DNA from: Flavobacteriales bacterium
Lineage (GTDB): Bacteria; Bacteroidota; Bacteroidia; Flavobacteriales_D; Sanyastnellaceae
Length of the DNA stretch: 64,000 nucleotides
Direction of reading: 5' to 3'
NCBI GenBank assembly: GCA_027491075.1
Contig: JAIXWX010000025.1
Coordinates: 248,001 to 312,000 of the forward strand
The notes beneath the pieces are model-generated. The model was not told where the DNA came from. It ran no database searches and was given only the letters and a program-made list of their open reading frames with translations. The position numbers and the translations under genes were made by a program. Shown here in pieces: positions 1,836 to 19,874 of this stretch (positions are counted from its first letter, which is position 1; each line of letters starts with the position of its first letter).

Positions 1836-4800
1836 ATGAAGAATTTCTACTCTTGCAGTAGTCATTTAGCTCGTTTTAATTCTCTTTTCACACGAGCAAT
1901 TCTGGTAGCTTTCCTCAGTTTTTTTGCGACCATTAACTCAGATGCACAGTGTAACAACGTGACCTCTGGCGGTTCTATTGGAAGTAATCAAAGTGGATGC
2001 TCGCCATTCGACCCTTCTACCATTACCAACGTGGCATGGCCAACAGGCGGTAGCGGCAACATTCAGTACATGTGGCTTTTTAAAAATGCGACTACTGGGT
2101 GGAACTTCCAAACTGTATCTGGTGCCTCCTCTGCGAGTTATGATCCGGGTCCGCTCACTGAGACTACTACTTTTCGTCGTTGCTCACGCAGAAATGGCTG
2201 TACTTCATGGGATGGAGAAACCAATGATATTACCATTACCATTACAGGCAACTGCAATCCTTCGGGACCTCAGGCTTTGAACTGTACCGGTCAGTTTTCA
2301 TGGACTGCCAACTGGTCTTTGAATGGTTGTACCGTGAACAGTGAAGTTCTATTTGCGGATGGTGGTACCTTTAATATAGCATTGCCTTCTGCGATGTCTA
2401 CTAACAACATCGTTATTAATTCGATTCACACTTCTTCTTATGATGGCTACTGCAATCGTCAGAATGTGACTCAGCCAAACGAGAAGTGGAAAATCGTTTT
2501 CTTCAAAAACGGAAACGTTGTAGGACAAACGGGATATACCACCGATATCCAAGATTTTGTGGTTGAGAATACTCGTTTCAATAATTTCTCAGGATTCAAC
2601 CTCCCCAACGGTGCAGATCAAATGAGATTGGTTCATTTCGAAGACCCAACTTTCGGTAATGGTCCAGATAACAGCAGTCCAAACTCTGTTAGACCATCAG
2701 GAGTGTGTATCAACTATACCATACAAAATACATGTAACAACATTACCGATGGTGGTATCATTGGAACGAGTGCAAACGGTTGTGCTCCTTTCGATGTGCA
2801 TATTACCAGTACAACGCTTCCTTCTGGAGGTTCTGGTAATATCGAATACATGTGGTTGTACAAGAACGCTTCCACTAACTGGGAGTTTCAAACGGTTCCT
2901 AATGCCAACGGCCCTTCTTTGGATTATGGTTTAATCAACCAAACGACTACTTTCCGTCGTTGCTCAAGAAGAACAACCTGCACGGCATGGGATGGAGAGA
3001 CAAATGACGTGACTATTACGATTACTGGAAATTGTAACCCAGACGAAATATGTTTGGTTACCGGTTATCAATCGACTACAGGAAGAATTTTCTGGATACC
3101 TAATTTCGGAACAGACTTTAGAAGTGCAGATTCCGATCCATTGGTTATTCATAAGTTTGATAATGGAGCCGCTCGCATGTTTGGTACTATAGAACGTATT
3201 AGCAATCCTAATGCGCGTTTCTATGTAAACATGTGGTTTGATACAAAGTCAACTTTCGCCCAGTGGTCGATGATGGGACTTTCTGCACACTCACCACAAT
3301 GGGGTGATGAAAGCACGTGGACGTTCTATAAGTTTAGCGTAACAATTCCTTCAACGCTCACGGGTCAAGGTAGCTTGACGGGAACAAATTTGGTTTTAAC
3401 AAACCAAGTAGCAGCCTACGGATTCCAATTAGGGAATGGTGCGAATGCACTTAACGCAAATGATAACGGATTAAGCGTTTGGTTCTCTTACACAGGAAGT
3501 GCTTCTGGACATGGCGATATCAATGGTTCTTATGATTGTGAAGCGGGCTGTCCAGGCGTATGTGCAAGCGATACAACTCCTCCTGTTTTCCAAAACGTGC
3601 CACCAAACGTTACCATCAGTTGTACCAATGGCAATCCACCTGTGGTGAACCCAACCGCCTCAGACGACTGTGATACCAACGTTGATATTCAGTTTGAACA
3701 AAACATCATTGGAGAAGATTTCCCCGATACCACTCACTGTCAAATCTTTGATGCAGGAGCTGGTCATACCCTTTGGATTTCTTCAGAGTTGAGAAATGCT
3801 CTAGGTTTGACAAGCAATAATTTTGTTTCCATTACTCCTGGATCGTTTAAGAAATTTGAAGATGGTTCCATCAAGATTACTGGTATTGTTCAAAGTGCGA
3901 GCAATCCAAATAAAAAGTTTGAGTACACTGCCCATTACCATTTGAAGCGAACCTATGAAGAGTGGACCGCTATACCTAATCCGAACACCTCTACAGGTTT
4001 CCGTGCGGAAAAGTTAGATGCGGGTACAACGATAACCTTGGGCTTTGAGTACTTCGATTGGCATTATTATGAGATGAATCCAAGTGTTCCCAATACCCTC
4101 GTTGGGCTTGGAGATCTTGCAGGTGTTAATCTGACCATCTCGCATTTCCCTGAAGATTACAGATATGCAGCACAGTTGGGAGAGAATGCTTCTCTTCAAA
4201 GCTATGGTCTCGGTTTTTCTTCATGGATACTTCTTCAAGGAGATGTTTTCGGAAATCATATTACCGATCACGGTGATTTCAATTTTAATATTGAGAACTG
4301 TTCTAACCCAGATGCGACTGTAGACTGTGATGACAATTACATGATCGTTCGTGAATGGACTGCTACAGACAACTGTGGTAATGAAACGGTAGCAACTCAA
4401 ACAATCACCGTTGTTGGCGATCAAGTGCCACCTACTTTTGATAACCTTCCAGGAAATCAAACAGTAGCATGCGGTGAACTTCCAACCATCGAAGAGCTTG
4501 GAGTTACTGCTTCTGATAACTGCGATCCATCCGTCATTGTTACTGGTTCTTATCAAGATCAAGGAAGCGGATGTGAGTACGTTCGTGTTTACACTTGGGT
4601 GGCAACCGACGATTGCGGAAATCAAATTACTGCTAGTCGCACCTTTACTCGTTCAGACGATGAAGAGCCTGTATTGATGAATCTTCCAAACGGTGGAACT
4701 GCAGTGTGTGGAAATTTGCCCGTACCCGGTTCTTTCGCAGTGACGGCTGAAGATGAGTGTGCTGGAAGTGTTCCTGTTCAAGTATCCTTTGTGGATGGTG

Positions 4801-7800
4801 GTTCTGGATGCAATTTAACCCGCACATTTACATGGACAGCTACTGATCCATGTGGAAATATGGTAACGGCATCGGTAGTATTCAATGTATTGGATAACAC
4901 TGCGCCTGTCATAAACAACGTGCCCAACGATATCACCCTCGAGTGCGGAACACCCGCTCCGAACGCGCAGGTTACTGCTCAGGATTTGTGTGATAACAAT
5001 GTTGTGCCAGTATTGACAACACAAATTCAAACGCAAGCTTGCGGATTCAAATTGATTCGCACGTGGACTGCTACAGACGATTGCGGCAACGTATCAACGG
5101 AAGAGCAGATCATTACTTATATCGATACGCAAGATCCATACATTGTAAACGAACCTTCAGACATGGAGGCTATATGCGGATCAGTTATTCCTGTTGTAGC
5201 GCCAACTTTTGATGATAGCTGTGACGAAGAACTCCAAGTGGTGTTTACACAAACACAAGAACCATTCGGTTGTACTTATAAAATAATTCGTAAATGGGTT
5301 GCAACGGATGATTGCGGCAACGATGTAATGGCTCAACAGATAATTACTATTGTAGATAACGTTCCACCTATCATTGTGAATGTGCCTGCGAATATCACTG
5401 TAAACTGTGATGCCATTCCAGCTCCTGCTTCAAACGTGTCGGCCTCTGACGAATGCGATTTGAGTGTGAATGTGGTGTTTGGTCAAAGCACACAAAACTT
5501 GGCTTGCGGATTCGTCATTACCAGAACATGGACTGCAACAGATGATTGCGGAAATACAGCTTCTGCTTCGCAATTGATTACTGTGACCGATACTAAGAAG
5601 CCGATTATTAATGGGGTGCCAGCGGATGTGATTGCTAGCTGTGACAATATTCCTGCTGTTCCAACAAATGTGACTGCTTCTGATATTTGTGATTCAAACG
5701 TAATTCCTACTTTCTCACAAACCATCATTCCGGGTGATCCTTCAACAGGAGGATGCACGTACACCATTGTGCGAACCTGGACTGCGGTGGATGATTGTGG
5801 AAATACAGAAACAAAATCGTACTCAATTATCGTTTCTGATAATACTCCTCCTACACTTCAAAACGCTCCTGCGAATACCACTGCAGAATGTTCTAGTTTG
5901 CCAACAGCTCCTGAGCTATTTGCAACTGATAATTGTACAGAAGGGTTGATTCCTGCTGTTTTGAATGTTCAAATTGTTCCAGTAAGCGCATGTTCTTACA
6001 ACATTATCCGCACTTGGACGGCAACAGATGATTGCGGTAATGCTGCTTCTGTTGTACAAACGATTTCTGTTACGGATAGTACGGCACCTGTATTTGATAA
6101 TGCTCCGGCAAACGTTACAGTTCAGTGCGGAAATATTCCAGCGGTACCGGTAGTGACGGCTTCAGATTTATGCGATGCAACAGCTGAAGTTTCATTCTTT
6201 GAAATGCCTTTCGGTTCTGGTTGTAACTACACGATTCAACGTGTATGGATTGCTTCTGATGACTGTGGAAATTCTGCAGTTCATACCCAAATCATCACGG
6301 TTACAGATAACCTTCCTCCTACATTGAATGGCGTTCCTGCAAATACACAGGTTCTTTGCAACGCGATCCCAGCTGCTCCAGTAGTTACTGCAAGTGATGC
6401 ATGTGATACCAATGTTCCTGTTACGTTCTCTGAACAAGTAGGAACAGGATGTCCTTATACCATTACAAGAACATGGACGGCTACCGATGACTGCGGCAAC
6501 GTAGCATCAGCAACGCAGGTGATTACAGTAATTGACGAAGTGTCTCCTGAATTAATTGGAGTTCCTCTAGATGCTACAGTAGAGTGCGGTAGCATACCAG
6601 CAGTTCCTGCAGTAGCAGCGTTTGATGAATGCTCTGGAGCTCTGCAGGTATCGTTCAACGAATCAGTACTGCCAGCAAATTGCGGTTATATTTTACAGAG
6701 ATTCTGGACAGCCACCGATAATTGTGGCAATACAATATCTGATATTCAAGTGATCACAGTGGTAGACGAAACGGATCCTTATTTCACCTTCGTTCCGCAA
6801 GACGTGACTATCTTGTGTACAGAAGCATTGCCGACGGATAGTGCTACAGCGGCTGACATCTGCGACCCATTGGTTTCTGTTGAATTCATCGATGTAGAAA
6901 CTGAATTGGCTTGTGGTAGCTTGATAACAAGAACTTGGACCGCGACAGATGAATGTGGAAATACAAGTTCTGCAATACAATCCATCATTATTACTGATGT
7001 AGAGGGTCCAGTAGTAACTGAACCTTTGGAAGAAGTGATTCAATTGGAATGTGGTTCAGCATTGCCTACTGACGAGCCCGTATTCGAAGACGAATGTGGA
7101 TTGATTGCGGATGTTGTTTACTCAGAAAACACCGTAGATCAATCTTGCGGATATGACGTGGTTCGTACATGGGAAGCTACAGACAACTGCGGCAATTCAA
7201 CACAGTTTGTTCAAACCGTGGAGATTCGTGATACACAAGATCCAATCATCACTGGACAAATTCAGGTTGAGACGCAGTGCAATGTTCCTTACGAATCGTT
7301 GGTGGATATCTCAGACAACTGCGATACTGATCTTGATATTACAGTAAATGAGTTAATGGTGAGCGGAGGATGCGCAGGTGTTATCATTCGCACATTCACA
7401 GCGACCGATGATTGCGGAAATTCAGCAACCTTCCAACAGTTTATCACCTTGATAGACGAGACTGCTCCAACTGCTCTGAATGCTCCAGCGGATACCACTA
7501 TCCAATGCGGTCAGTCTATTCCTGCAGTTGCAACAGTTACTTTCGAAGACAACTGCAACGGTCCGGTAACTACTACTTTCAATGAGTCATCTGTAGACAC
7601 CGATTGCGGTGAAATCATTACCCGCGTGTGGACTGCACTTGACGAGTGTGAGAATTTGGCTACCGTTACACAAGTAATTACGGTAACAGACAGCATCGCA
7701 CCGGTGATCAGCAACGTTCCATCAGACTTGAATTTGGAGTGTGGATCGGCCATTCCTCCAGTAGCAACAACGGTCACTGCATTCGATGCGTGCAACGGAG

Positions 7801-8900
7801 TGCTTCAGGTGAGTGTTACAGAAGCTACCAACCAGGTGGAATGTGGATTTGAGATTGTAAGAACATACTCAGCGACTGATAATTGCGACAATGTTGCAAG
7901 CGTTTCTCAAACCATCACGGTAATTGATACACAGGCTCCGTTCATTGATGGCGCTGTAGAAAACATCACCGTGGCATGCGATGATATCCCCGCTGCTCCA
8001 GTATTCACAGCGACGGACCTTTGTGATACATCTGTTCCTGTGATCTTCTCTGAACAAACATCTGTAGGTTGTCCATACACCATTACGCGTCGTTGGACTG
8101 CCGCAGACGACTGCGGAAATGAAGTAGAATTGGTTCAAATCATCAATGTGATTGACACCGTTCTTCCAACCTTTGATCCGTATCCATTGTTTGCAGTAAT
8201 TTCTTGTGATGCTTTTGAGAATTATACCCTCACTGCTTCGGACAACTGCGATGGAGACGTGGAAGTAGAGGTTATTTCAGAAGTATTGTTCAGCGGAAGC
8301 TGTTTGGCTAACGTAGAAAGAATGTACCAGGCTACGGACAATTGCGGTAATTCAGTAATTGTTTCGCAAATCATCCAGTTGGTAGACAATACTGTACCTC
8401 AGTTATTCAACGTGCCTGCAAATACCACCATCACTTGTGGTTCACCGGTTCCAGCAGTGCCAACGAACATTACTGCTACCGATAATTGCGATGCAGACGT
8501 GACCATTACGTTCACTCAAACACAGACCAATACATTCTGTCCTTACGACATCGTGCGTACTTGGACTGCAGTAGACAACTGTGGCAACGTGACTACCGGC
8601 ATACAAGTGATTACGGTGACGGTGGAAATTGAGCCGAATACGATATTCAAAACGTATCCGAACCCTGCGGAGAAAGAGTTCACATTTGAGTTCTCTACTC
8701 CAACCAATGCGACGGTATTCGGGGGCGTTTATGATATTACGGGTCGTGAAATCATTCGTTTGATGCAAGGTCCAGCCGACGGAGGTCGTCTCTATAAGCA
8801 ACAGATCCCTGTAAATGCTTTGAGAGCTGGCACCTATACGGTGATGATGCGTGTAGATGGAGAGGTGTATAACCAAAAGTTGGTGATCATCAACCGATAA
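1836..8900 (+). CDS. Giant T9SS-exported HYR-like repeat protein (2354 aa)
   Basis: This looks like a very large cell-surface or secreted protein exported by the type IX secretion system. Residues 1-37 form a Sec signal peptide (hydrophobic AILVAFLSFFATI, cleavage near SDAQ). A cysteine-rich module of about 101 residues occurs twice (39-140 and 300-400; shared end TFRRCSRR, WDGETND, TITGNC). A second module type occurs at about 405-568 and again at about 629-822, the later copy lying inside the first HYR-like unit. About 19 tandem units of 75-85 residues then run to about 2265, each with a CD...WTATDDCGN core and about four Cys. The last 85 residues (KTYPNP, ITGRE, LRAGTY, VIINR) are a T9SS type A sorting domain. 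The repeats suggest adhesion or a surface scaffold, which is inference. A terminator follows at once. Confidence 0.9.
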   Translation: MKNFYSCSSHLARFNSLFTRAILVAFLSFFATINSDAQCNNVTSGGSIGSNQSGCSPFDPSTITNVAWPTGGSGNIQYMWLFKNATTGWNFQTVSGASSASYDPGPLTETTTFRRCSRRNGCTSWDGETNDITITITGNCNPSGPQALNCTGQFSWTANWSLNGCTVNSEVLFADGGTFNIALPSAMSTNNIVINSIHTSSYDGYCNRQNVTQPNEKWKIVFFKNGNVVGQTGYTTDIQDFVVENTRFNNFSGFNLPNGADQMRLVHFEDPTFGNGPDNSSPNSVRPSGVCINYTIQNTCNNITDGGIIGTSANGCAPFDVHITSTTLPSGGSGNIEYMWLYKNASTNWEFQTVPNANGPSLDYGLINQTTTFRRCSRRTTCTAWDGETNDVTITITGNCNPDEICLVTGYQSTTGRIFWIPNFGTDFRSADSDPLVIHKFDNGAARMFGTIERISNPNARFYVNMWFDTKSTFAQWSMMGLSAHSPQWGDESTWTFYKFSVTIPSTLTGQGSLTGTNLVLTNQVAAYGFQLGNGANALNANDNGLSVWFSYTGSASGHGDINGSYDCEAGCPGVCASDTTPPVFQNVPPNVTISCTNGNPPVVNPTASDDCDTNVDIQFEQNIIGEDFPDTTHCQIFDAGAGHTLWISSELRNALGLTSNNFVSITPGSFKKFEDGSIKITGIVQSASNPNKKFEYTAHYHLKRTYEEWTAIPNPNTSTGFRAEKLDAGTTITLGFEYFDWHYYEMNPSVPNTLVGLGDLAGVNLTISHFPEDYRYAAQLGENASLQSYGLGFSSWILLQGDVFGNHITDHGDFNFNIENCSNPDATVDCDDNYMIVREWTATDNCGNETVATQTITVVGDQVPPTFDNLPGNQTVACGELPTIEELGVTASDNCDPSVIVTGSYQDQGSGCEYVRVYTWVATDDCGNQITASRTFTRSDDEEPVLMNLPNGGTAVCGNLPVPGSFAVTAEDECAGSVPVQVSFVDGGSGCNLTRTFTWTATDPCGNMVTASVVFNVLDNTAPVINNVPNDITLECGTPAPNAQVTAQDLCDNNVVPVLTTQIQTQACGFKLIRTWTATDDCGNVSTEEQIITYIDTQDPYIVNEPSDMEAICGSVIPVVAPTFDDSCDEELQVVFTQTQEPFGCTYKIIRKWVATDDCGNDVMAQQIITIVDNVPPIIVNVPANITVNCDAIPAPASNVSASDECDLSVNVVFGQSTQNLACGFVITRTWTATDDCGNTASASQLITVTDTKKPIINGVPADVIASCDNIPAVPTNVTASDICDSNVIPTFSQTIIPGDPSTGGCTYTIVRTWTAVDDCGNTETKSYSIIVSDNTPPTLQNAPANTTAECSSLPTAPELFATDNCTEGLIPAVLNVQIVPVSACSYNIIRTWTATDDCGNAASVVQTISVTDSTAPVFDNAPANVTVQCGNIPAVPVVTASDLCDATAEVSFFEMPFGSGCNYTIQRVWIASDDCGNSAVHTQIITVTDNLPPTLNGVPANTQVLCNAIPAAPVVTASDACDTNVPVTFSEQVGTGCPYTITRTWTATDDCGNVASATQVITVIDEVSPELIGVPLDATVECGSIPAVPAVAAFDECSGALQVSFNESVLPANCGYILQRFWTATDNCGNTISDIQVITVVDETDPYFTFVPQDVTILCTEALPTDSATAADICDPLVSVEFIDVETELACGSLITRTWTATDECGNTSSAIQSIIITDVEGPVVTEPLEEVIQLECGSALPTDEPVFEDECGLIADVVYSENTVDQSCGYDVVRTWEATDNCGNSTQFVQTVEIRDTQDPIITGQIQVETQCNVPYESLVDISDNCDTDLDITVNELMVSGGCAGVIIRTFTATDDCGNSATFQQFITLIDETAPTALNAPADTTIQCGQSIPAVATVTFEDNCNGPVTTTFNESSVDTDCGEIITRVWTALDECENLATVTQVITVTDSIAPVISNVPSDLNLECGSAIPPVATTVTAFDACNGVLQVSVTEATNQVECGFEIVRTYSATDNCDNVASVSQTITVIDTQAPFIDGAVENITVACDDIPAAPVFTATDLCDTSVPVIFSEQTSVGCPYTITRRWTAADDCGNEVELVQIINVIDTVLPTFDPYPLFAVISCDAFENYTLTASDNCDGDVEVEVISEVLFSGSCLANVERMYQATDNCGNSVIVSQIIQLVDNTVPQLFNVPANTTITCGSPVPAVPTNITATDNCDADVTITFTQTQTNTFCPYDIVRTWTAVDNCGNVTTGIQVITVTVEIEPNTIFKTYPNPAEKEFTFEFSTPTNATVFGGVYDITGREIIRLMQGPADGGRLYKQQIPVNALRAGTYTVMMRVDGEVYNQKLVIINR
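1950..2255 (+). repeat. N-terminal duplicated cysteine module, copy 1
   Basis: This encodes residues 39-140 of the giant protein. The copy at 2733-3035 has the same order of motifs: CNN, GGSGNI, YMWL.KNA, FQTV, TTTFRRCSRR, WDGETND, TITGNC. The module is specific to this protein within the window and I do not recognise a named domain. Confidence 0.85.
2733..3035 (+). repeat. N-terminal duplicated cysteine module, copy 2
   Basis: This encodes residues 300-400 of the giant protein and is clearly homologous to residues 39-140. The two copies are separated by about 160 residues of unrelated sequence, so this is an intragenic duplication, not a simple tandem repeat. Confidence 0.85.
3573..8627 (+). 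repeat. Array of about 19 HYR-like protein repeats
   Basis: The encoded units follow one template: a D..PP/AP junction, NVPANxTVxCG, IPAxP, TASDxCD, a variable strand, a single C, then YxITRTWTATDDCGN and ITVTD. Cysteines recur at four fixed positions, which suggests disulphide-stapled Ig-like folds outside the cell. Units diverge at DNA level, so this is an old array rather than a recent slippage product. The first unit is split by an inserted domain (residues about 629-822). Confidence 0.88.
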
Positions 8901-8918
8901 TTTAATTCGTACTTGCTT

Positions 8919-8964
8919 AATCGCCCCGTTCCTTCCGGTTTATTTCCAGAAGGGCGGGGCGATT
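8919..8964 (+). terminator. Rho-independent-type terminator after the giant gene
   Basis: AATCGCCCC at 8919-8927 pairs with GGGGCGATT at 8956-8964, and CCTTC (8931-8935) pairs with GAAGG (8949-8953) inside the same hairpin. It begins 18 bp after the stop codon at 8900. The U-run is weak (TTTCATTT), so efficiency is uncertain. Confidence 0.75.
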
Positions 8965-8982
8965 TCATTTGGGGAAAATCCC

Positions 8983-8990
8983 TATTTTTG
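8983..8990 (+). promoter_or_regulatory. Bacteroidota -7 box upstream of 9009 gene
   Basis: TATTTTTG is a perfect TAnnTTTG match and ends 18 nt before the ATG at 9009. It lies downstream of an in-frame TTG at 8913, so transcription from it would exclude that earlier start. Confidence 0.6.
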
Positions 8991-9008
8991 CCTCCCCAAT
9001 TCATTTTC

Positions 9009-9602
9009 ATGGCCAAAAAACTCACCAATGTCAACATCTATAAGTTTCGAGTGATCATCGATACTGAGGAAGATGTGTTCAGGGATATTGAAATAGAAAC
9101 TGACGCAACGTTCGAGTCTTTTCATCGAGCGATTCTGGACGCGTTCGATTTCGAAGAAGGGGAGATGGCCAGTTTCTATATGAGTGACGAAAATTGGGCG
9201 AAAGGCCTGGAGATTCCGCTCATGGAGATGGAAGGCGGGAAGAGCAAGAAGAACCTCAGCATGAGTTCAACCAAGCTCAACGACATGGTCACAAAGCCTT
9301 CTGAGAAAATATTGTACGTCTATGATTTCTTGAGAATGTGGTGTTTCTACGTGGAGTTGATGGAAGTGAAGAAGGACAAACCCAGTACGATTTATCCACG
9401 AGTGGCAATGGCCTACGGAGATGCGCCTGCCCAAGACAGCAAAGAAATGGACCTATTTGGAAGTGAGTTCGATCAAGAAGAATTCAATGAATTTCACGGA
9501 AATAGTTCTGAAGAAGAGGAAGAAGAAGACATGTTTGGCGAAGGAGGTGAGTTCTTCGATGAAAGTGATTTCGATGGATCCTACAAAGACAGCGACTATT
9601 GA
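9009..9602 (+). CDS. Plasmid pRiA4b ORF-3-like (TnpR-like passenger family) protein
   Basis: The 197-residue product begins MAKKLTNVNIYKFRV and continues with a strand-rich domain (DVFRDIEI, FESFHRAILDAFDF, ASFYMSD, KILYVYDF) that I read as the pRiA4b ORF-3 fold, also called the IS1096 passenger TnpR family. The family is widespread in Bacteroidota chromosomes and its function is not known; despite the name there is no resolvase motif. The last 60 residues are extremely acidic (EEEEEEDMFGEGGEF). The start at ATG 9009 is chosen because the promoter box at 8983-8990 lies between it and the earlier TTG. Confidence 0.75.
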   Translation: MAKKLTNVNIYKFRVIIDTEEDVFRDIEIETDATFESFHRAILDAFDFEEGEMASFYMSDENWAKGLEIPLMEMEGGKSKKNLSMSSTKLNDMVTKPSEKILYVYDFLRMWCFYVELMEVKKDKPSTIYPRVAMAYGDAPAQDSKEMDLFGSEFDQEEFNEFHGNSSEEEEEEDMFGEGGEFFDESDFDGSYKDSDY

Positions 9603-9671
9603 TCGTTGGACGCGTTATTTTTAGTTTTTCTTGAGAAAATAAAATCCTTGCACTGCATTACATTGGTATCC

Positions 9672-10175
9672 ATGAGAACAAATATTTGGTTTTATACCGG
9701 TTTGCTTTTAGTCATTTTTACAATAAGCTGTAAAGAGGAGGGGCCAAAGGTTACCAGTGATTTATTGAACTTTCCCAAGACCGCCTCTGGCATGGAAGAC
9801 ACCGATCTTCCCGTGATGGCTTTTGAGAATCCCGTTTATCATTTTGACACCGTTGCCGTGGGCGAGAAGATCACCCATTCTTTTTCTTTTTCGAATAAAG
9901 GAAAATCTCCTTTGGTGATCAGCAGTGTGAAACCCGCGTGTGGATGCACCACCTTAAAAGATTGGCCCAAAGATCCCATTGCTCCAGGAGAAGGAGGAGT
10001 CATTACCGTAGAGTTCAACTCCAATGGTTTTTCCGGAGCCATTGACAAGAGCGTTTTTGTGCGAGCCAATACCGTTCCGGTGGACAATATCTTAAAATTA
10101 ACAGGAGTGGTAAGGGGTGTAGCATTAGAAGGGCAACAAGATGCGCCCGCCATAAAAATGGAAAGAACCCGTTAA
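9672..10175 (+). CDS. DUF1573 lipoprotein
   Basis: The 167-residue product starts at ATG 9672 with a short hydrophobic segment and a lipobox ending in Cys (FTISCKEE), so it is probably a lipoprotein anchored in the periplasm or outer membrane. Residues about 45-155 form the DUF1573 Ig-like domain. The family hallmark is visible: FDTVAVGEKITHSFSFSNKG, then KPACGCTT, IAPGEGG, VTVEFNSNG and a terminal GVVRG strand. Bacteroidota encode many DUF1573 proteins with no fixed biochemical role. It sits just upstream of yajC with its own spacing, and the yajC promoter overlaps the gap. Confidence 0.9.
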   Translation: MRTNIWFYTGLLLVIFTISCKEEGPKVTSDLLNFPKTASGMEDTDLPVMAFENPVYHFDTVAVGEKITHSFSFSNKGKSPLVISSVKPACGCTTLKDWPKDPIAPGEGGVITVEFNSNGFSGAIDKSVFVRANTVPVDNILKLTGVVRGVALEGQQDAPAIKMERTR

Positions 10176-10182
10176 AACGCGT

Positions 10183-10190
10183 ATGTTTGC
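10183..10190 (+). promoter_or_regulatory. Bacteroidota -7 box for yajC
   Basis: Bases 10182-10189 read TATGTTTG, a perfect TAnnTTTG match, ending about 20 nt before ATG 10210. The apparent upstream start codon at 10183 is the ATG contained within this box, which argues for the later start. Confidence 0.6.
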
Positions 10191-10209
10191 GCCAAAATTT
10201 ATAAGTACA

Positions 10210-10515
10210 ATGAATAGTATAGTTCTTCAAGCCCAACAAGGAGGCGGCATGGGTCCACTTCTATTAATGGTGGGAATGTTTGTTATCATGTATTTCTTCA
10301 TGATTCGTCCGCAGATGAAAAAGATGAAGGAAGCCAAGAAGTATCAGGAAGCCATTCAAGTTGGCGACAAAGTCATCACCGTGGGCGGTATCCATGGCAA
10401 AGTAGTAGAGATCGGAGAGAAAGATGTAGTGATTACACTAGATCAAGGCCGCATGCGCGTTGAGAAAGCTGCATTGAGCCATGACAAGACAGTGGTAGAA
10501 GGAAATCAGAAGTAA
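10210..10515 (+). CDS. yajC: Preprotein translocase accessory subunit YajC
   Basis: YajC is the small inner-membrane partner of SecDF in the Sec translocon. The 101-residue product has one membrane helix (MGPLLLMVGMFVIMYFFMI) followed by the family signature RPQMKKMKEAKKYQEAI and a basic/beta domain VGDKVITVGGIHGKVVEI. Length and layout are typical. ATG 10210 is preferred over ATG 10183 because the earlier codon lies inside the -7 promoter box. It follows the DUF1573 lipoprotein by 34 bp. Confidence 0.96.
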   Translation: MNSIVLQAQQGGGMGPLLLMVGMFVIMYFFMIRPQMKKMKEAKKYQEAIQVGDKVITVGGIHGKVVEIGEKDVVITLDQGRMRVEKAALSHDKTVVEGNQK

Positions 10516-10601
10516 ACTGACGCGTATCATAAGGCCAGCTGACCCACGTCAAAGGCATTTGAATTTGTTTGGTGGAGTTTTGTGCTATAAAACAAACCAC
10601 C

Positions 10602-10991
10602 ATGGCACAGCAGACACTTTACCACATCTCTCACGTGAGCAATGAACACAGTGATTGGCTCCGAGGCATAGACTTTTATAAAGACGAGATCCATATTTTA
10701 GAGAACAGGTTATCTGAAGTTTCTCAGAAGTGGACCAAGACAGAAGTAAAAGCCGACATCGAGCATTATCAGAACCAATTCATCATTCAAAAGGCGAATT
10801 TGGAAGATTTGCAAACGGGCATCAAGCAGCACGAAGTTCATATGAGCAACGATGCACAAAACAAAGCCTTGCATCTCTCCAACAACACCTTGGCCGAGCA
10901 CGACAACATGAGAGAGCGCTACCAGTCCTTGGAGAAGATCATTGTTGATTTGAGACACGACTTCAACAAATTCCTCAGCCGATACATGTAA
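10602..10991 (+). CDS. Hypothetical coiled-coil protein
   Basis: The 129-residue product from ATG 10602 is almost entirely charged and helical. Leu/Ile spacing (DFYKDEIHILENRLSEV, EHYQNQFIIQKANLEDL, MRERYQSLEKIIVDL) predicts two or three long coiled-coil helices. No signal peptide or membrane segment is visible, so it should be cytoplasmic. I do not recognise a family. A strong bidirectional-looking hairpin follows the stop by 30 bp, so the gene appears to be monocistronic and the last core gene before the accessory island. Confidence 0.75.
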   Translation: MAQQTLYHISHVSNEHSDWLRGIDFYKDEIHILENRLSEVSQKWTKTEVKADIEHYQNQFIIQKANLEDLQTGIKQHEVHMSNDAQNKALHLSNNTLAEHDNMRERYQSLEKIIVDLRHDFNKFLSRYM

Positions 10992-11048: not shown

Positions 11049-11092
11049 TTATGCTCTTTATTCCCGTCCCCGTTCTAGTCCCTTCCTCCTCA

Positions 11093-11323
11093 TTCCCATT
11101 CCCGTTCCCGTTCCCATTCCCGTTCCCATTCCCATTCCCGTTCCCATTCCCGTTCCCATTCCCGTTCCCATTCCCATTCCCATTCCCGTTCCCGTTCCCG
11201 TTCCCGTTCTCGTTCCCATTCCCATTCCCATTCCCATTCTCGTTCCCATTCCCGTTCCCATTCCCATTCCCGTTCCCGTTCCCATTCCCGTTACCGTTCC
11301 TCGTTCCCGTTCCCATTCCCGTT
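11093..11323 (+). repeat. CCCRTT hexanucleotide tract (about 38 units)
   Basis: This is an almost uninterrupted run of CCCATT and CCCGTT hexamers, with a few variant units (TCTCGTT, TTACCG, CCTCG). Degenerate units extend it left to about 11061. CGTTCTAGTCCC occurs on both margins (near 11071 and 11320). On the - strand it reads GGGAAY repeated, that is G3 runs with 3-nt spacers, the arrangement expected to form stacked G-quadruplexes. All reading frames are open only because the unit is a multiple of three, so I call no gene here. The rest of the 10992-11489 gap holds the terminator and an attC-like half site. Confidence 0.95.
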
Positions 11324-11404
11324 CTAGTCCCCGCGTTCCATGCCCTTTCTTCCCTATATCGAAAATTTGGTTACTTAAGAATTAGGTGTATTTTTAAGGT
11401 AGAT

Positions 11405-11443
11405 AAATGCACCTCAGGGGTGTGGTTAGCGGATAGTTATGCG
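11405..11443 (+). other. Right half of an attC-like site
   Basis: GTTAGCGGATAGTTATGCG (11425-11443) resembles the right ends of the sites at 12760 (GTTAGTGG) and 15214 (GTTAGCAG). A small CACC/GGTG inverted repeat precedes it (about 11409-11422). A full left arm is not recognisable, so this may be a decayed site or the array's attachment end. An ATG at 11439 lies within it. Confidence 0.45.
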
Positions 11444-12630: not shown

Positions 12631-12772
12631 CTACGTCTAACAGTACCTACCCAAAAGGCAGGGTTTCGTGCTTCGCAGACACATTTTTGCCAGCCGAAAG
12701 TTCAGTTCTCCGAATGAAGTTTAGTGCTAAAACTCCCCGTCATCGCAAACCCTCGAAACGTTAGTGGTCATG
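12631..12772 (+). repeat. attC-like palindrome B
   Basis: An imperfect palindrome of about 142 bp lies between cassettes. It opens CTACGTCTAACAG (AAC as in attC R'') and closes CGAAACGTTAGTGG (GTT as in R'). AGGGTTT (12659-12665) pairs with AAACCCT near 12747-12753. The rest of the 12625-12822 gap holds no gene. I infer an integron-type recombination site folding as a single strand; it deviates from the strict GTTRRRY consensus. Confidence 0.6.
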
Positions 12773-12822: not shown

Positions 12823-14175
12823 ATGAGTACTCTGACGAAAAATATCTCGCTGACAAATCTTTCGGTTAACATCGAAAATCCAAGATTTGAACTTGTAGGT
12901 AATCAAAGAGAAGCCTTACAAGTTATGATAATAGACCAAGGCGATAAGTTAATCAATTTAGCCAAGGACATTGTTGAAACAGGAATGTTAAATCCCGGTG
13001 AACTTATTTTGGTAACACCCCATGAAAAAGACAAAGGACATTATAATGTTCTAGAAGGAAACAGACGGGTAACCGCCTTGAAAATACTTTCTAATCCCGA
13101 CTTAATTGATGGCAAGCATAGTTCATTTGCCAAAAGGCTGAAACCATTTGCTGAACAATTTAAAAAGAAGCCAATTCTTGACATTCCATGTGTAGTATTC
13201 AACAATCCTGATGATGCTAACAAATGGATTAAATTAAAACATACAGGTGAAAATGAAGGTATTGGTATTGTTAGATGGGATGCTCAGCAAGTTGCACGAT
13301 TTGACGAAAGAATAGAAGGGACATCGCCAGTTGCTTTACAAGCAATAGACTTTTTAAGAAAGGAAAGTAGCGTGTCTGAAATAGTAAAAAGCAAACTAAA
13401 AAATGTCCCATCTTCTAGTTTAGATAGGTTGCTAAAAGATAAGAACGTTCAACAGGTTATCGGCATTAATGTAAAAGACAATAGACTTCAAACTCATCTA
13501 CTTAAAGACGAAGTTGTAAAAGGACTCGCAAAAATTGTAACAGATTTAGCCGACAAAAAAATTAAAGTTAAAGACATTTACACAAAGGAAGATAGAGAAA
13601 AGTATATTGAAACATTTAAACCCGCAGACATACCAAATAAAAAGAAGAAAGCAACATCTGCTTGGGAATTAACTTCTCCAACAATACCGAGCAAAACAAC
13701 ACCATCGAAATCAAAACCTAAACCAACTCCACTATCAACAGACCGTGAAACTGTAATTCCTAAAGACTGTATTTTATCCATTAACGAACCAAGAATAAAC
13801 AAAATTTATAGGGAACTTAAAGGTTTGAATGTTGACCTCTTTGAAAATGCTGCTGGAGTTATGTTTCGTGTTTTTATTGAACTCACACTTGATACATATA
13901 TTGACCATCATAAATTGGCAACTGTAAATAAAGACGCAAGACTAAGAAAAAAAGTGGATGAAGTATCACTTCATATGGAGAAACAAGGATATGCAGATAA
14001 GCACATTTGCGGAGGCATTAGAAAGGCCGTTAGTAACAATCATGATGTTTTAGCAATGGAAACATTCAATGCATATATCCACAACAGACACCTTTCCCCC
14101 ATCCCTAAGGACTTAAAAATAACATGGGATAATATTCAGATATTCGTAGAAAAAATTTGGTCAACAATTAAATAA
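12823..14175 (+). CDS. ParB-like protein with C-terminal helical domain
   Basis: The 450-residue product begins with a ParB/sulfiredoxin-like fold: a strand-rich start, the segment ALAKD-like helix LINLAKDIVETGML, and the nucleotide-binding style motif LEGNRRVTALKIL at about 77-89. The middle carries helices plausible for DNA binding and a Lys/Pro/Ser-rich linker at about 275-312. Residues about 315-450 form a separate helical domain ending ETFNAYIHNRHLSP...W..I, reminiscent of HEPN-like domains, but the catalytic RxxxxH is not secure. It is joined by a TAATG overlap to the methylase gene. A role in DNA recognition, or as a CTP/ATP-dependent effector paired with the methylase, is inference. 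Confidence 0.75.
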   Translation: MSTLTKNISLTNLSVNIENPRFELVGNQREALQVMIIDQGDKLINLAKDIVETGMLNPGELILVTPHEKDKGHYNVLEGNRRVTALKILSNPDLIDGKHSSFAKRLKPFAEQFKKKPILDIPCVVFNNPDDANKWIKLKHTGENEGIGIVRWDAQQVARFDERIEGTSPVALQAIDFLRKESSVSEIVKSKLKNVPSSSLDRLLKDKNVQQVIGINVKDNRLQTHLLKDEVVKGLAKIVTDLADKKIKVKDIYTKEDREKYIETFKPADIPNKKKKATSAWELTSPTIPSKTTPSKSKPKPTPLSTDRETVIPKDCILSINEPRINKIYRELKGLNVDLFENAAGVMFRVFIELTLDTYIDHHKLATVNKDARLRKKVDEVSLHMEKQGYADKHICGGIRKAVSNNHDVLAMETFNAYIHNRHLSPIPKDLKITWDNIQIFVEKIWSTIK

Positions 14176-15029
14176 TGGATTTTCATTCACCACTTCGATA
14201 CCCAGGCGGCAAAGGTAAAATTGCCAACTTCATCAAACTTGTTTTTGAGAGGAATTTATTACTTGATGGATGGTATGTAGAGCCCTATGCAGGGGGAGCT
14301 TCGGTTGCATTGTCATTATTATTCGGGGAGTACGCATCAAAGATTGTAATTAATGATTACGACAGAGCCATTTACGCATTTTGGCATTCTGTCCTAAACG
14401 ACACTGAAAATCTGTGCAATCTAATAGAGAATACTATGGTAAATATTAAAACTTGGCGACAGCAAAAGGTAATTCAAGAACAGAAAGACACGGCAGACTT
14501 ATTAGAACTTGGTTTCTCCACTTTCTTTTTAAACAGGACTAATCGTTCAGGAATTATTAAAGCAGGGGTTATTGGTGGCATTGAACAGACTGGGAACTAT
14601 AAAATTGACGCTAGATTTAATAAGACAGACTTAATTAACCGAATTAAACGTATAGCAAATTACAAGAACAGAATTTTACTATATAACTTAGATGCTATTG
14701 AGCTTATAAAAACAATAAGTAAAACCTTGCCTGACAAAACTCTTATCTATTTTGATCCTCCGTACTACTTAAAAGGAAAAGACTTATATGTAAACCATTA
14801 CAAGCATGAGGACCATGTTTTAGTATCTCAAATGATAAATGGAATTAATAAACATAAGTGGCTTGTATCATATGACAATGCACCCGAAATAAATGACATT
14901 TATAAGCGAAATAAGAAATTTGAATACGACTTAAATTATAGTGCTGTAAACGCCACTAAAGGGACAGAAGTAATGATTTATCACAACGACTTATTTATTC
15001 CAAAAGTGACCAGTCCGACATCAATTTAA
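14175..15029 (+). CDS. D12-class DNA adenine methyltransferase (Dam-like)
   Basis: This enzyme should transfer a methyl group from S-adenosylmethionine to N6 of adenine in DNA. The 284-residue product has the D12 family layout: SPLRYPGGKGK at 5-15, the AdoMet site VEPYAGGASVAL at 35-46, acidic INDYDRAIYAFW at 59-70 and the catalytic DPPY at 194-197. Its ATG overlaps the previous stop (TAATG), so translation is probably coupled. No restriction endonuclease is adjacent, so this is either an orphan methylase or the self-marking half of a two-gene system with the ParB-like protein. It lies in the AT-rich cassette array. Confidence 0.93.
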   Translation: MDFHSPLRYPGGKGKIANFIKLVFERNLLLDGWYVEPYAGGASVALSLLFGEYASKIVINDYDRAIYAFWHSVLNDTENLCNLIENTMVNIKTWRQQKVIQEQKDTADLLELGFSTFFLNRTNRSGIIKAGVIGGIEQTGNYKIDARFNKTDLINRIKRIANYKNRILLYNLDAIELIKTISKTLPDKTLIYFDPPYYLKGKDLYVNHYKHEDHVLVSQMINGINKHKWLVSYDNAPEINDIYKRNKKFEYDLNYSAVNATKGTEVMIYHNDLFIPKVTSPTSI

Positions 15030-15084
15030 GAGATAACATGACTAGTAAAGGACGACACATTGACTTGGAGAAAGAAGCACGAAC

Positions 15085-15225
15085 AGCCAACACACATTAG
15101 GCGTCATGTGGGGTGACGTGCTTTTAATTCAAGTGCCTTGCACCTATTCAGCTTTAGTGGTAGGTTGACAGTGAAATGCTTCTAAATCCGGCACCAACGC
15201 CAAGTGTGGGACCGTTAGCAGCTAT
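15085..15225 (+). repeat. attC-like palindrome C
   Basis: The left arm CCAACACACATTAGGCG (about 15087-15103) is matched on the right by CGCCAAGTGTGGG (about 15198-15210), followed by GTTAGCAG. The central part AGCTTTAGTGGTAGG, then TTGACAGTGAAATG, is shared with sites D and E. The 15030-15258 gap contains no convincing gene; a 20-codon frame at 15037-15099 was rejected. Confidence 0.65.
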
Positions 15226-15258
15226 AATACAGACCAAGAAGAAGCCAAAAAATAACAA

Positions 15259-15849
15259 ATGAATATGGCACATAGAGTTTTTATATCTCACAAAAGAGAA
15301 GATAAAGCATACAAGAACTATATCCTAAATAACTTAGGTGTGGATATGATTGATAAATCATTGAATGAGCGAATAGATTCGAACGATGAAGATTATGTGA
15401 TGCGGAAAATACGTGAAGACTATTTGTCAGACTCTACTGTTACAATTTTCTTGATTGGGAAATATAGTGCTGAAAACTTAGGTGAAGAAGAACAGATTTA
15501 TATAAAGCGAGAATTACAAGCATCACTTTATGATGGAAAGGCTAATTCTAAGAATGGGATTTTAGGTATTGTGTTACCCGAAATGTATGACAGTATTTAT
15601 AAAGGTAATTATAGCTGTAGCGAGTGTGGTGGCAATCATAATCATGTTTCAATAAATAATAGCACCGTAATAGCAGAGTTTTCATATAACTACTATATTC
15701 CAAAAGACAAATGCTCATGGTCTGAGGATGACAGATATTGTGTTCTTGTCAAGTGGGACGATTTTAAGTCAAAACCAGAAAAGTATATTGACTTAGCTTT
15801 TGATAAACGGAAAAGGGAAATTTCTTCAAAAACCAAAGTAAGACCATAG
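15259..15849 (+). CDS. ThsB-like TIR-domain protein (DUF1863/MTH538-type)
   Basis: The 196-residue product begins with the TIR-type strand HRVFISHKREDKAYKNYI and has the DUF1863 pattern: an extended loop after GVDMIDKS, a helix around YVMRKIREDYLSDS, the strand VTIFLIGKYSAEN, and YIKRELQASL with Glu85 at the position expected for the NADase glutamate. A Cys/His set (C120, C123, H127, H129, C152, C161) suggests a zinc-stabilised insertion. In Thoeris systems ThsB-type TIR proteins sense phage and make an NAD-derived signal; here that role is inference. The stop overlaps the GTG of the next gene (TAGTG), so the two are co-translated. Two Met codons (15259, 15265) are possible starts. Confidence 0.85.
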   Translation: MNMAHRVFISHKREDKAYKNYILNNLGVDMIDKSLNERIDSNDEDYVMRKIREDYLSDSTVTIFLIGKYSAENLGEEEQIYIKRELQASLYDGKANSKNGILGIVLPEMYDSIYKGNYSCSECGGNHNHVSINNSTVIAEFSYNYYIPKDKCSWSEDDRYCVLVKWDDFKSKPEKYIDLAFDKRKREISSKTKVRP

Positions 15850-16733
15850 TGAAATATTCAGACTTTCCAAGTTATTTTCAAGCATCAGATACTGCTTCAT
15901 TGAAGGCGCAGAAGTTTTATTTAAATATTATTAGGATTGATTTATTATCAATGATTTTTTCTTCTGCATTAGCAATTTACAATTACCAATCAATTGAATC
16001 TAAACTAGTTGTTTATTTTATTTCGGGACTATTCCTTCTTTTGGGTTTAGTTCTAACAGTAATTCTCAAAACAAAAAAATACGAAGACGTGTGGTATCAG
16101 GGACGAGCTTTAGCGGAATCCAGTAAAACCCTCACATGGCGTTTTGTTTGCTGCTCAGAATACTTTGAAAGTTCCTTAGATATTATAGAAGCAAAAAGGA
16201 GATTTGTTGAACGCATCCGAGAATTATCCGACGAATTTAAAGAACTAGAAATTGCAATGAACTCTAGAACGCTAAACTTGCCAATTATTACTGACAGAAT
16301 GCTAGAAATTAGAGCATACAACTTGGGCGCCAGAAAGGATTATTACATTAAAAACAGAATCGAAGACCAAAAGAAATGGTATGCAGACAAAGCAGAATAT
16401 AATTCAGAAAAATATAATCTTTGGTTTTGGTTTGTAATTGTTTCACAAGCAATATCTCTTATAAGCATAGTTTTTCTCATTGCTAATCCATACTTCAACT
16501 TGAATTTTGTAGGTCTTCTTACGACAATTTCCGCCTCAGCTTTGAGTTGGCTTCAACTAAAACAGCATCAAGAATTAAAACAAGCATACACGACAGCAAC
16601 ACAAGAATTAAATTTTATTGCAACATTAACAGACCAATTAACGACAGACGACAGCTTTTCTAAGTTTGTTTTAGACTCCGAAAACGCTGTTTCTAGAGAA
16701 CATACATTATGGTTGGCTCAAAGAAGAAGATAA
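15849..16733 (+). CDS. DUF4231/SLATT-like four-helix membrane protein
   Basis: The 294-residue product starts at a GTG overlapping the TIR gene's stop. Two predicted membrane hairpins, at about 29-45/54-74 and 190-212/218-236, are separated by a soluble helical region. The first unit has the DUF4231 pattern YQASD..Q..Y and WYQGRALAESSKTLTWRF; the second has the SLATT pattern QKKWYADKAEYN before the helices and an amphipathic tail (WLQLKQHQELKQAYTTA). SLATT proteins are predicted pore-forming effectors in nucleotide-signal defence systems. With a TIR protein upstream, the natural hypothesis is a Thoeris-like pair whose effector depolarises the membrane. That is inference; the pairing and membrane topology are visible. 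Confidence 0.82.
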   Translation: MKYSDFPSYFQASDTASLKAQKFYLNIIRIDLLSMIFSSALAIYNYQSIESKLVVYFISGLFLLLGLVLTVILKTKKYEDVWYQGRALAESSKTLTWRFVCCSEYFESSLDIIEAKRRFVERIRELSDEFKELEIAMNSRTLNLPIITDRMLEIRAYNLGARKDYYIKNRIEDQKKWYADKAEYNSEKYNLWFWFVIVSQAISLISIVFLIANPYFNLNFVGLLTTISASALSWLQLKQHQELKQAYTTATQELNFIATLTDQLTTDDSFSKFVLDSENAVSREHTLWLAQRRR

Positions 16734-16735
16734 CA

Positions 16736-16917
16736 GCTACTAACAGTGTGTTGCCTAAGTTAGAGGTGACTTGGAAATTTGTAGCTGATATTTCTATAAA
16801 GCTTTTGTGCTGGTCGACAGTGGAGTGCGAAATTCAAGCTTTGTGCATTTAATGAAGTAACAGTTTTGTGCTCTGAAACCCGCCCGAGCGCAAAGCCCGA
16901 AACTGTTAATTGTAACC
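16736..16917 (+). repeat. attC-like palindrome D
   Basis: The region opens CTACTAACAGTGTGTTGCC and closes GAAACTGTTAATTG. The middle holds AAGCTTTTGTGCTGG then TCGACAGTGGAGTG, the same core as in sites C and E. A second AAGTAACAG near 16856 suggests two overlapping or nested sites. The 16734-16949 gap has no gene. Confidence 0.6.
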
Positions 16918-17739: not shown

Positions 17740-17849
17740 TACACATAACAGCACTTACCCAAAAGTGGCGGTTCAATATTTAAATCGAGCTTTGTGCTTA
17801 GTTGATAGTGAAGTATTTCGAAATCGCCACCTTCAGGTAGCTACTAACC
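17740..17849 (+). repeat. attC-like palindrome E, interrupted by a group II intron
   Basis: The left arm TACACATAACAGCACTTACC (17740-17759) and GTGGCG (near 17765) pair with CGCCAC (17825-17830), GGTA (17836-17839) and CTACTAAC (17841-17848). The expected outer arm GTTATGTG is missing here but appears as TTATGTGCAAC at 18347-18357, on the far side of the intron. The core AGCTTTGTGCTTAG then TTGATAGTGAAGTAT is present. The intron thus split this site near its right terminus. Confidence 0.68.
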
Positions 17850-18347
17850 GTATGTGTCTTGAATGACACCCGAGAAGCGGGGTCAATGCTGTACAGAAGA
17901 TCGAAGACAGCTTTGTCTTTAGGAAACATGAGCGCGAAGTCCGAACGAATAGGATGTTCGAATTACTAATAGGCTCAATCTGACAGGCCGACCGCAAATT
18001 CCTGATAGGAGGAATTTGAAATCGCTAGTTATATGTTGAAGTAAGTTCTTTCGTGGTACTCAATTACAACGTTAATTTTTCGACAGGCAATTTGGGTAAG
18101 ATTTGGAACAATCTCAATAAGCGATTGATGAAGTGGGTGCAATGGGAAAAGGGGCTTTATGTTTATGCGAGTTTGAAATGGCTAAAGAAGAAATACAAGG
18201 CTAGGCCTGCACTTTTTCCGCATTGGGCAATGGTTCATCCGCAGTTTTTGATACATTAGTGACTGAACAAGAAAAGCCTTATGAAGGGTGACCTTCAAGT
18301 ACGGTTTTGTGAGAACGCAGGGGTGAAATTCCCTTGCGTGACTCGAT
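17850..18347 (+). mobile_element. Group II intron remnant, copy 1 (internally deleted)
   Basis: The left boundary GTATGTG and about 190 bp of conserved 5' ribozyme-like sequence are followed by the end of a maturase gene, a good domain V and a hairpin like domain VI. Domain V (about 18273-18308) shows the AGC triad in AAAGCC paired with GGTTTT, then TGAAGG-GTGA-CCTTCA with a GNRA tetraloop. Domain VI has CGCAGGG paired with CCCTTGCG. Most of the maturase gene is deleted. Insertion inside an attC-like site is the habit of group IIC-attC introns. Boundaries are accurate to a few bases. This accounts for the 17736-18376 gap together with palindrome E. Confidence 0.78.
18053..18259 (+). pseudogene. 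Fragment of group II intron maturase (C-terminal thumb region)
   Basis: The frame encodes NYNVNFSTGNLGKIWNNLNKRL, KWLKKKYKARP and LFPHWAMVHP, which I match to the X/thumb and tail of intron-encoded reverse transcriptases (family pattern INYYGKF...LN.RL.KW...KARP.LF.HW). The reverse transcriptase palm, with its YADD box, is absent. The upstream sequence joins directly to non-coding intron 5' sequence, so this is a deletion remnant and not a functional gene. Confidence 0.75.
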
Positions 18348-18376
18348 TATGTGCAACCCGCTTTTAAAATTTAGAC

Positions 18377-19174
18377 ATGCCGATAATAGACCATGAAGCA
18401 TTAATAAACCCGGAACCCGAACAAATAATTTGGAGATACCTCGACCTTGACAAGTTTGAAAGTATTTTAAGGGATAAGGGATTATTCTTCTGCCGGTCTG
18501 ACAAATTCTCTGACCCTTTTGAAGGGACAGTACCTAAAGGAGAGTCAGAAAACAGAGTATCAACAGAGAAGCGGTTGGTGCAATTTCATAATAGCGACAT
18601 GACTCATGAAGAGGCCGTCAAAAGAAGTTACGAAATCGGGAATCTTCATAAAAGATTTAGAAGGGCGTTTATAGTTAACTGTTGGCATATAAATCAGGGT
18701 GAGTCTGATGCAATGTGGAGATTATACTTAAAGACGAATGAAGGTGTGGTTATCCAAACAACTGTCAAGAAATTAAGGGAATCGTTCGACAATTCTGATG
18801 AAGAAATCTACATAAGTAAAGTAAGGTACTTGGACTACGAAAAAAATATTTGGTTTCATGCGAATGACTACCCCGTTAGGGGTTACAACATATTTACGCC
18901 TATTGTCCATAAAAGGACAGCCTTTGTTCATGAAAGTGAACTAAGAATATTTCAACAAATTAACGAAGCAGTGGATAACGACAAATATTGGGACGACAAA
19001 CCCAATTATATGGGAAAACATATTTCATGCAATATTGAGCACCTGATTGACAAAGTTATTATTCCACCGACAGCTGACGAGCCGATAAAAAATAAGGTTG
19101 AAGAGATAATGAAAAAATACGGACTGACAAGAGAGATTGAGAAATCAAAACTGAATGAAGAGCCTTATTATTAA
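18377..19174 (+). CDS. DUF2971 family protein
   Basis: The 265-residue cytoplasmic product shows the DUF2971 pattern: IIWRYLDLDKFESILRDKGLFFCRSDKFSDPFEGTVP near the N-terminus (tryptophan, DPFEG), then VNCWHINQGESDAMWRLYLKTNEGVVIQTTV in the middle, and a conserved HESELRIF segment. The function of the family is unknown; it is frequent in variable genome regions. The gene starts 29 bp after the split attC-like site and is followed by palindrome F, so it forms its own cassette. AT-rich composition agrees with transfer. Confidence 0.82.
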   Translation: MPIIDHEALINPEPEQIIWRYLDLDKFESILRDKGLFFCRSDKFSDPFEGTVPKGESENRVSTEKRLVQFHNSDMTHEEAVKRSYEIGNLHKRFRRAFIVNCWHINQGESDAMWRLYLKTNEGVVIQTTVKKLRESFDNSDEEIYISKVRYLDYEKNIWFHANDYPVRGYNIFTPIVHKRTAFVHESELRIFQQINEAVDNDKYWDDKPNYMGKHISCNIEHLIDKVIIPPTADEPIKNKVEEIMKKYGLTREIEKSKLNEEPYY

Positions 19175-19189
19175 GATTTGACAATGCGG

Positions 19190-19318
19190 GCAGCACACAA
19201 CAACATGTTTCTGCCAGCTTGGGGTGAACTGTTAAATTGTAGTTTAGTTTTATTAATTTAGTTTACGTTTCTTGGACAGAATGCAGCTTCGGAAACCCAA
19301 GCCGTCAGAAACACAAAC
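19190..19318 (+). repeat. attC-like palindrome F, interrupted by second intron remnant
   Basis: CAGCACACAACAACATG (about 19190-19206), TTTCTG and AGCTTGGG (19216-19223) pair with CCCAAGC (19296-19302), CAGAAA (19306-19311) and CAAAC. This is the strongest palindrome of the set. The shared TTGACAGTGAA core is not evident here. The intron starts exactly at its right arm, after AAAC. Confidence 0.62.
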
Positions 19319-19749
19319 GTGTGTGACTTGAATGACTCCCGTGAAGCGGGGTCAGTGCTGTACAGAAGATCGAAGACAGCTTTGTCTTTAGGAAACATGA
19401 GCGCGAAGTCCGAGCGAACAGGATGTTCGAATTACTGATATGCTCAATCTGACAGGCCGACCGCAAATGCCTGATAGGAGGAATTTGAAATTGCTAGTTA
19501 AATGTTGAAGTTAAGTTCTTTTGTGGTACTCGATTACAACGTTTATTTTTCGACAGGCAATTTGGGTAAGATTTGGGGCAATCCTAATAAGCGATTTATG
19601 AAATGGGTACAATGAGAAAAGGGATTTTATGTTAAGGCGAGTTTGAAATGGCTATAGAAGAAGTACAAGGCCATGCCTAGAGTTTTTCCATATAGAACAA
19701 TGGTTCATCCGTGATGTATGCTTACATTGGTAACGGAACACCAAGAGCT
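19319..19749 (+). mobile_element. Group II intron remnant, copy 2 (more decayed)
   Basis: From GTGTGTGACTTGAATGAC onward it aligns base for base with copy 1 (17850-18271) with scattered substitutions. It has the same internal deletion joining 5' ribozyme sequence to the maturase tail. In-frame stops (TGA near 19615, TAG near 19654) and loss of domain V and VI after about 19749 mean it cannot splice. The sequence from 19750 to 19874 shows nothing I can identify. Confidence 0.75.
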
Positions 19750-19874
19750 CTCTGCATAGATTGGACGAGGTGGGTGAATGGAGGGGTTTTTACAGGGTTC
19801 TAAGGGGAATCGGAGGTGACATGGATCCATCTTCCCCCATTCGTAAACATGGCCAATGCACTAAATAGAAATAA

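Follow-up and report, generated by a model that had tools for sequence, protein, structure and literature searches.

What are the two insertions that interrupt neighbouring palindromes of this locus, and how did they come to carry the same internal deletion? The DNA analysed here, which we call the window, is a stretch of 64,000 nucleotides (contig C25:248001-312000) from a Flavobacteriales genome of 3.02 Mb in 34 contigs, 99.7% complete. It holds two direct copies of an element of ~0.5 kb, 1.47 kb apart, which are 88% identical over the 428 nt of their alignment. A preliminary description, made from the letters alone, had read them as remnants of two group II introns with one and the same internal deletion, each starting at the right arm of an attC-like palindrome. 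This reading is borne out below, with a different intron class and a different source for the common deletion. The explanation that we prefer, and consider highly probable as a whole, is that class D introns directed to the right core of attC-like sites would have inserted twice, that the deletion would have been shared between both insertions by gene conversion, and that the maturase would have been lost.

Domains V and VI of copy 1 match the Rfam model RF00029 with 49.4 bits (E 1.1e-6), and the copy runs from ATGTG, where its relatives have GTGTG, to ..GACTCGAT. Copy 2 has lost its 3' end from the start of domain V onward, as originally described; its maturase remnant contains stop codons, and it has no Rfam match even at E<=5. 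The covariance search thus identifies copy 1 as group II and is silent on copy 2. The sequence that replaces the lost end (19749-19870) has no second occurrence in the genome. The positions first given for the two elements were right within 2 nt; comparison with the relatives, whose 5' exon ends in CGT, moves both intron starts 2 nt downstream, to 17852 and 19321 (Table 1).

Table 1. Intron remnants, attC-like sites and leader (window coordinates unless a contig is named; a slash marks the insertion point).
Feature	Position	Strand	Evidence or remark
attI-like leader at head of window cassette array	11365..11439	+	81% identical to sequence at/after C20 recombinase gene end
Leader copies	window 11365-11439; C20 (L117:7700-7816); C7 (L007:458-537); C1 (L138:398-473)		
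attC-like site A, empty, AAACGT/TAGTGG across insertion point	12634..12772	+	R1 59.6 bits
attC-like site B, empty	15084..15226	+	R1 76.9 bits
attC-like site C, empty, divergent	16737..16917	+	R1 28.9 bits
attC-like site D, left part to insertion point, ...AACCGT/	17742..17851	+	R1 match 17742-17861, 71.2 bits
Copy 1, group II intron remnant with internal deletion	17852..18347	+	Ends from alignment with 37 relatives
Copy 1, 5' portion of domain I that is kept, as far as junction GTGGT (18053-18057)	17852..18057	+	Alignment with full-length L060, L079, L080
Copy 1, maturase C-terminus remnant NYNVNFSTG...HPQFLIH, 65 codons + stop	18062..18259	+	Read from the sequence; aligned at nucleotide level with the maturase 3' ends of relatives
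Copy 1, domains V (AGC triad, GUGA loop) and VI	18272..18347	+	RF00029
attC-like site D, right end beyond intron, /TATGTGCAAC	18348..18358	+	Joined site aligns with other genomes' sites
attC-like site E, up to insertion point, ...AAACGT/, right end lost	19197..19320	+	R1 match 19197-19330, 41.8 bits
Copy 2, intron remnant with copy 1's deletion, junction GTGGT 19523-19527	19321..~19748	+	Alignment

Alignment with full-length relatives (L060, L079 and L080) reveals how the copies are built. Both track domain I of these introns for ~200 nt and then switch at GTGGT, beyond which they correspond to the end of the maturase frame (NYNVNFSTGNLGKIWNNLN... vs NYYHLFTDKPMRIVWNQLN...), its last ~65 codons being kept. 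The deletion therefore joins 5' ribozyme sequence to the maturase end, as had been proposed, and has removed the rest of domain I including EBS1, domains II and III and most of the reverse transcriptase from both copies; a small indel next to the junction is also common to them. The two parental positions both hold GTGGT (..TTTGTGGTGAGCG in domain I, ..CGTGG.. in the ORF), so that the deletion looks like a product of slippage between short direct repeats. A full-length parent belonging to the remnants' own subfamily was not found, and the pre-deletion state is deduced from 5' ends that are ~63% identical. A retained EBS1 that had been read into the ACGTT of the remnants was rejected, this motif sitting in the maturase remnant. 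Since EBS1, domains II-III and the reverse transcriptase are deleted, the RNAs of the copies cannot splice or retrohome, and both copies are now inert.

A look for full-length relatives encoding a maturase elsewhere in the genome had been suggested as a check; a search of the whole genome found no group II maturase (TIGR04416), and such relatives occur in many other Bacteroidota. A genome search combined with a maturase-alignment scan of GTDB contigs gathered 52 loci, with Bacteroidota records in all but one (a Thalassobius record). Their introns, with boundaries extracted from the contigs, start with GTGTG(A/T)CTTGA and finish with ..GACTCGAT or near variants. In a maximum likelihood tree of 39 maturases, the sixteen from hairpin-targeting Bacteroidota introns form one clade (100/99), nested in a larger clade (100/99) with proteins of S. 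meliloti and R. etli, the references on which the assignment to class D (RmInt1 type) rests. The maturases of GsI-IIC, E. rectale and the two IIC-attC controls (L131/L132) group apart from them in a clade of their own (100/99). Copy 1 and the relatives have AGC, not CGC, as the triad of domain V, and tree and triad together exclude group IIC. On sequence evidence, the copies are decayed members of a Bacteroidota class D (IIB-like, RmInt1-type) intron lineage, a class assignment that comes from the full-length relatives, the remnants' own 65 codons being too short for a tree. The ORF of L015 (420 aa) stops shortly past the maturase domain and has no endonuclease domain. The 5' ribozyme part used alone as a query in a phylum-wide search found nothing beyond this genome, and a search of plasmids with the remnant gave short domain V/VI matches only. 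Within the genome, 3' pieces of two further related introns lie at C19 1520-1775 and C7 ~3750-3848 (BLAST match 3809-3848). Both pieces carry a ~20-nt insertion between domains V and VI, which points to a second intron subfamily formerly present in this genome.

The insertion point was compared over 37 loci, including the two of the window and several Sediminibacterium loci that are not independent. The 5' exon ends with CGT in 37/37, usually as AAACGT or AACCGT, and the 3' exon begins with T in 31/32; the window exons end with AACCGT/ (copy 1) and AAACGT/ (copy 2). In domain I of L049/L050, the motif ACGTTT, as read from the sequence, complements AAACGT and is a candidate for the 6-bp EBS1-IBS1 pairing of class D introns. 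Introns and genes are all on the + strand in the window, in contrast to the IIC-attC controls L131/L132, which lie opposite to their genes. In 23/37 loci at p<0.01, and in 29/37 at p<0.05 (vs 10,343 random positions), sequence further upstream is complementary to the final ~40 nt of the 5' exon. Site D reaches p=0.14 in this simple inverted-repeat test, yet it is matched by the covariance model described below. Four or five relatives (L054, L064, L065, L071, L100) have no clear hairpin, so the hairpin is either a preference or was missed in some cases. Minimum free energy z-scores against shuffles separated the occupied sites poorly, whereas arm complementarity and the covariance model did separate them.

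These hairpins belong to a family of sites with a fixed layout. Nearly all joined occupied sites and neighbouring empty sites of other genomes measure 137-142 nt, and they align as AAC, two stems, a variable loop, two stems and CGTT. In the alignment, 89.7% of cells are paired and 15/22 pairs show double changes, while sliding the partners by 1-3 nt as a control lowers pairing to 30-41%. A covariance model, R1, was built from 19 site sequences, none of them from the analysed genome. Its matches in this genome number nine: five lie in the window (A-E) and two each on C7 and C1, and no further match falls below E 6 genome-wide. The intron remnants occupy sites D and E (genome-wide E 1e-13 and 1e-6), and the model, which contains no window sequence, thereby upholds that each of them starts where an attC-like palindrome has its right end. 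When the flanks of copy 1 are joined, site D reads ...AACCGT/TATGTGCAAC and matches five sites from other Bacteroidota from end to end at 70-74% identity; the outer arm TTATGTGCAAC thus does continue after this copy. In the relatives, the model likewise matches the occupied sites with the insertion at its end and always on the intron's strand, including loci outside the model. Compared with the attC consensus, RYYYAAC...GTTRRRY cores flanking an imperfect, spacer-bearing hairpin, the sites conserve AAC/GTT and the hairpin, and are looser at other core positions. The hairpin is presumably used as folded DNA, and its interruption would have inactivated sites D and E. In a phylum sample, R1 (E<=1e-4) detects sites in 166/345 Bacteroidota genomes and 94/155 genera, the numbers of sites per genome being lower bounds. 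A literature search, with subscription papers and preprints outside its scope, found no published description of the Bacteroidota intron lineage or of the site family.

Are these palindromes recombination sites? They might instead be generic hairpins, such as terminators or repeats, that the introns simply prefer. The lack of a canonical integrase speaks for this: IntI (TIGR02249, curated cut-off) is absent from the analysed genome, from 399 genomes of the order and from 18 genomes, most of them intron-bearing, reached through fetched loci. However, generic hairpins would hardly share a fixed architecture of ~139 nt with AAC/GTT cores and strong covariation, follow single genes in arrays with a common leader beside a Xer-like recombinase, or offer the same GTT core to IS91-like elements, and we regard this possibility as rather unlikely. 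The leader, of ~75 nt, lies at and after the end of a recombinase gene on contig C20, and the arrays in the window, on C7 and on C1 begin with sequence that is 76-81% identical to it. The encoded protein is a Xer/IntI-like recombinase of 479 aa; the contig ends 59 nt past its gene. Aligned to TIGR02249, it skips positions 186-238, the IntI-specific part, and it bears an N-terminal extension of ~200 aa. In other genomes, the genes of comparable long recombinases are followed by a short palindrome ending in GTTA and then by a gene, and several of them have R1-positive sites within 1.5 kb. The layout looks like an integrase-attI-cassette arrangement that would function without canonical IntI.

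How did both insertions acquire the same deletion? Divergence between the copies is uneven: 15/255 positions (5.9%) differ in the 5' segment that holds the junction, and 37/174 (21%) in the 3' segment (Fisher p 3e-6). Such patchiness is expected of a conversion tract, and gene conversion between the two insertions is therefore most likely the source of the shared deletion; as a counterpoint, the gradient could stem from unequal constraint. This explanation, absent from the preliminary description, would fit better than the two offered there. Trans-mobilisation of a deleted intron is ruled out by anatomy, since an RNA missing EBS1, domains II-III and much of domain I cannot splice or recognise its target and so did not reach two sites unaided. 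A simple segmental duplication that includes the flanks is rejected as well: the palindromes and the downstream flanks of the copies differ.

Movement by recombination is unlikely but worth keeping in view. A cassette starting with the deleted intron would have been copied and then re-inserted behind another palindrome, with recombination at G^TT, a position 1 nt away from the intron junction. The geometry is suitable, as the insertion point GT/T is 1 nt from the core where an integron-type crossover (G^TT) would fall, and both 5' junctions are exact even though palindromes D and E differ upstream. Nevertheless, the right core is broken by the intron, no homology links the cassettes downstream of one copy with those of the other, and what follows copy 2 occurs nowhere else in the genome. 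It is improbable, too, that two independent insertions, both carrying the GTGGT repeats, each lost the same segment. The short direct repeat at the junction does occur in the domain I and maturase frame of relatives, and a relative in G061 (L051) shows an independent large ORF deletion; against this stand the indel beside the junction, also common to both copies, and 5' segments that are far more similar than the 3' segments. That relative (L051 ~2199-3216) keeps 126 C-terminal maturase codons and also lies within an attC-like site.

The proposed mechanism, with gene conversion as the preferred source of the shared deletion, starts from a lineage whose favoured target is the right core GT/T, 3' of a hairpin, in the phylum-wide ~139-nt attC-like sites. 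A full-length intron RNP with an endonuclease-less maturase would reverse-splice into the top strand, its target being chosen by pairing of EBS1 with AAACGT and probably also by the extruded hairpin 5' of this motif, much as group IIC introns rely on a hairpin instead of IBS2. Two such introns would have entered sites D and E of this genome, and one would have lost ~1.5 kb between GTGGT repeats. The deletion would then have passed between the nearby copies, most likely by gene conversion. The maturase would have been lost from the genome, and both copies are now inert.

These introns resemble several known systems in part. Like the IIC-attC introns found beside blaIMP-4 and arr-2 in class 1 integrons (L131/L132), they occupy the GT/T core of an attC-type site downstream of a hairpin and spread among cassette arrays. 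IIC-attC introns, however, have a class C maturase and a CGC triad, whereas the Bacteroidota introns are class D, with AGC. The former insert at TTGT/T in the bottom strand and point against the cassette genes (PMC7923331); the latter lie on the genes' strand. The expectation that group IIC introns would be found at attC sites was thus right as to the target and wrong as to the class. That the copies are IIC-attC introns recognising the attC bottom strand, with the deleted form mobilised in trans, is scarcely credible: attC-targeting group II introns known so far are mostly IIC (PMC7923331) and the core GT/T has the letters of TTGT/T, but the tree sets the relatives apart from two bona fide IIC-attC controls, the triad is AGC, the introns do not lie opposite to the genes, and the remnants are without EBS1 and domains II-III. 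Among IIB introns, UHB.I2 sits right after an attC in cassette orientation (Sonbol & Siam 2021, PMC7923331), and H.ha.F1 and H.ha.F2 are truncated introns in a CALIN (PMC7923331). The window copies share the type and cassette orientation of the former and the truncation of the latter. Those introns are single cases with CL1 and class E maturases (PMC7923331) and poorly conserved exons, unlike the class D lineage with its invariant target in dozens of genomes. The relatives share with RmInt1 and other class D introns the maturase family, the lack of an endonuclease domain and a length of ~420 aa. RmInt1 targets an insertion sequence, whereas its sister clade in Bacteroidota targets attC-like hairpins.

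Until now, the introns known to target attC were in essence those of group IIC, apart from a few of type IIB. That a class D lineage reaches the same core from the other strand, phylum-wide, suggests that group II introns have repeatedly found a niche in hairpin recombination sites, and the lineage may serve as a natural probe to tell which of the DNA strands folds. It likewise brings to light attC-like sites, a candidate recombinase and a leader in a phylum in which complete integrons are reported to be very rare (PMC9024848). As in an integron or CALIN, single-gene cassettes are each followed by a palindromic AAC...GTT site, and a leader lies beside a tyrosine recombinase; unlike in an integron, no IntI exceeds the curated cut-off, and the recombinase has the N-terminal extension and is without the IntI-specific insertion stretch. 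A widespread integron-like cassette system in Bacteroidota is the larger, unproven claim behind the intron finding. In our judgement, the chances are evenly balanced that sites of ~139 nt, in about half of the sampled genomes, would be moved by an N-terminally extended Xer/XerA-like recombinase beside an attI-like leader, not by IntI, and accompanied by dedicated class D introns on the strand opposite to that of IIC-attC introns.

Several minor features of the arrays complete the picture. Part of the window cargo (14175-16733) resembles anti-phage defence, with a D12-class adenine methyltransferase, a ThsB-like TIR protein and a SLATT-domain protein. Degenerate short tandem repeats lie just upstream of three leaders (window 11058-11350, L007 ~270-450, L138 1-300), with units that are CCCATT/CCCGTT hexamers or ACTAGTC/GTTAGTC heptamers. 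Three near-identical elements in L118 (G189; 3012-5017, 6221-8226 and 8693-10698), each encoding a tyrosine recombinase together with an IS91-type Y2 transposase, stand in tandem, with the GTT core of an attC-like site as their insertion point, and similar gene pairs occur near introns in L119 and L120.
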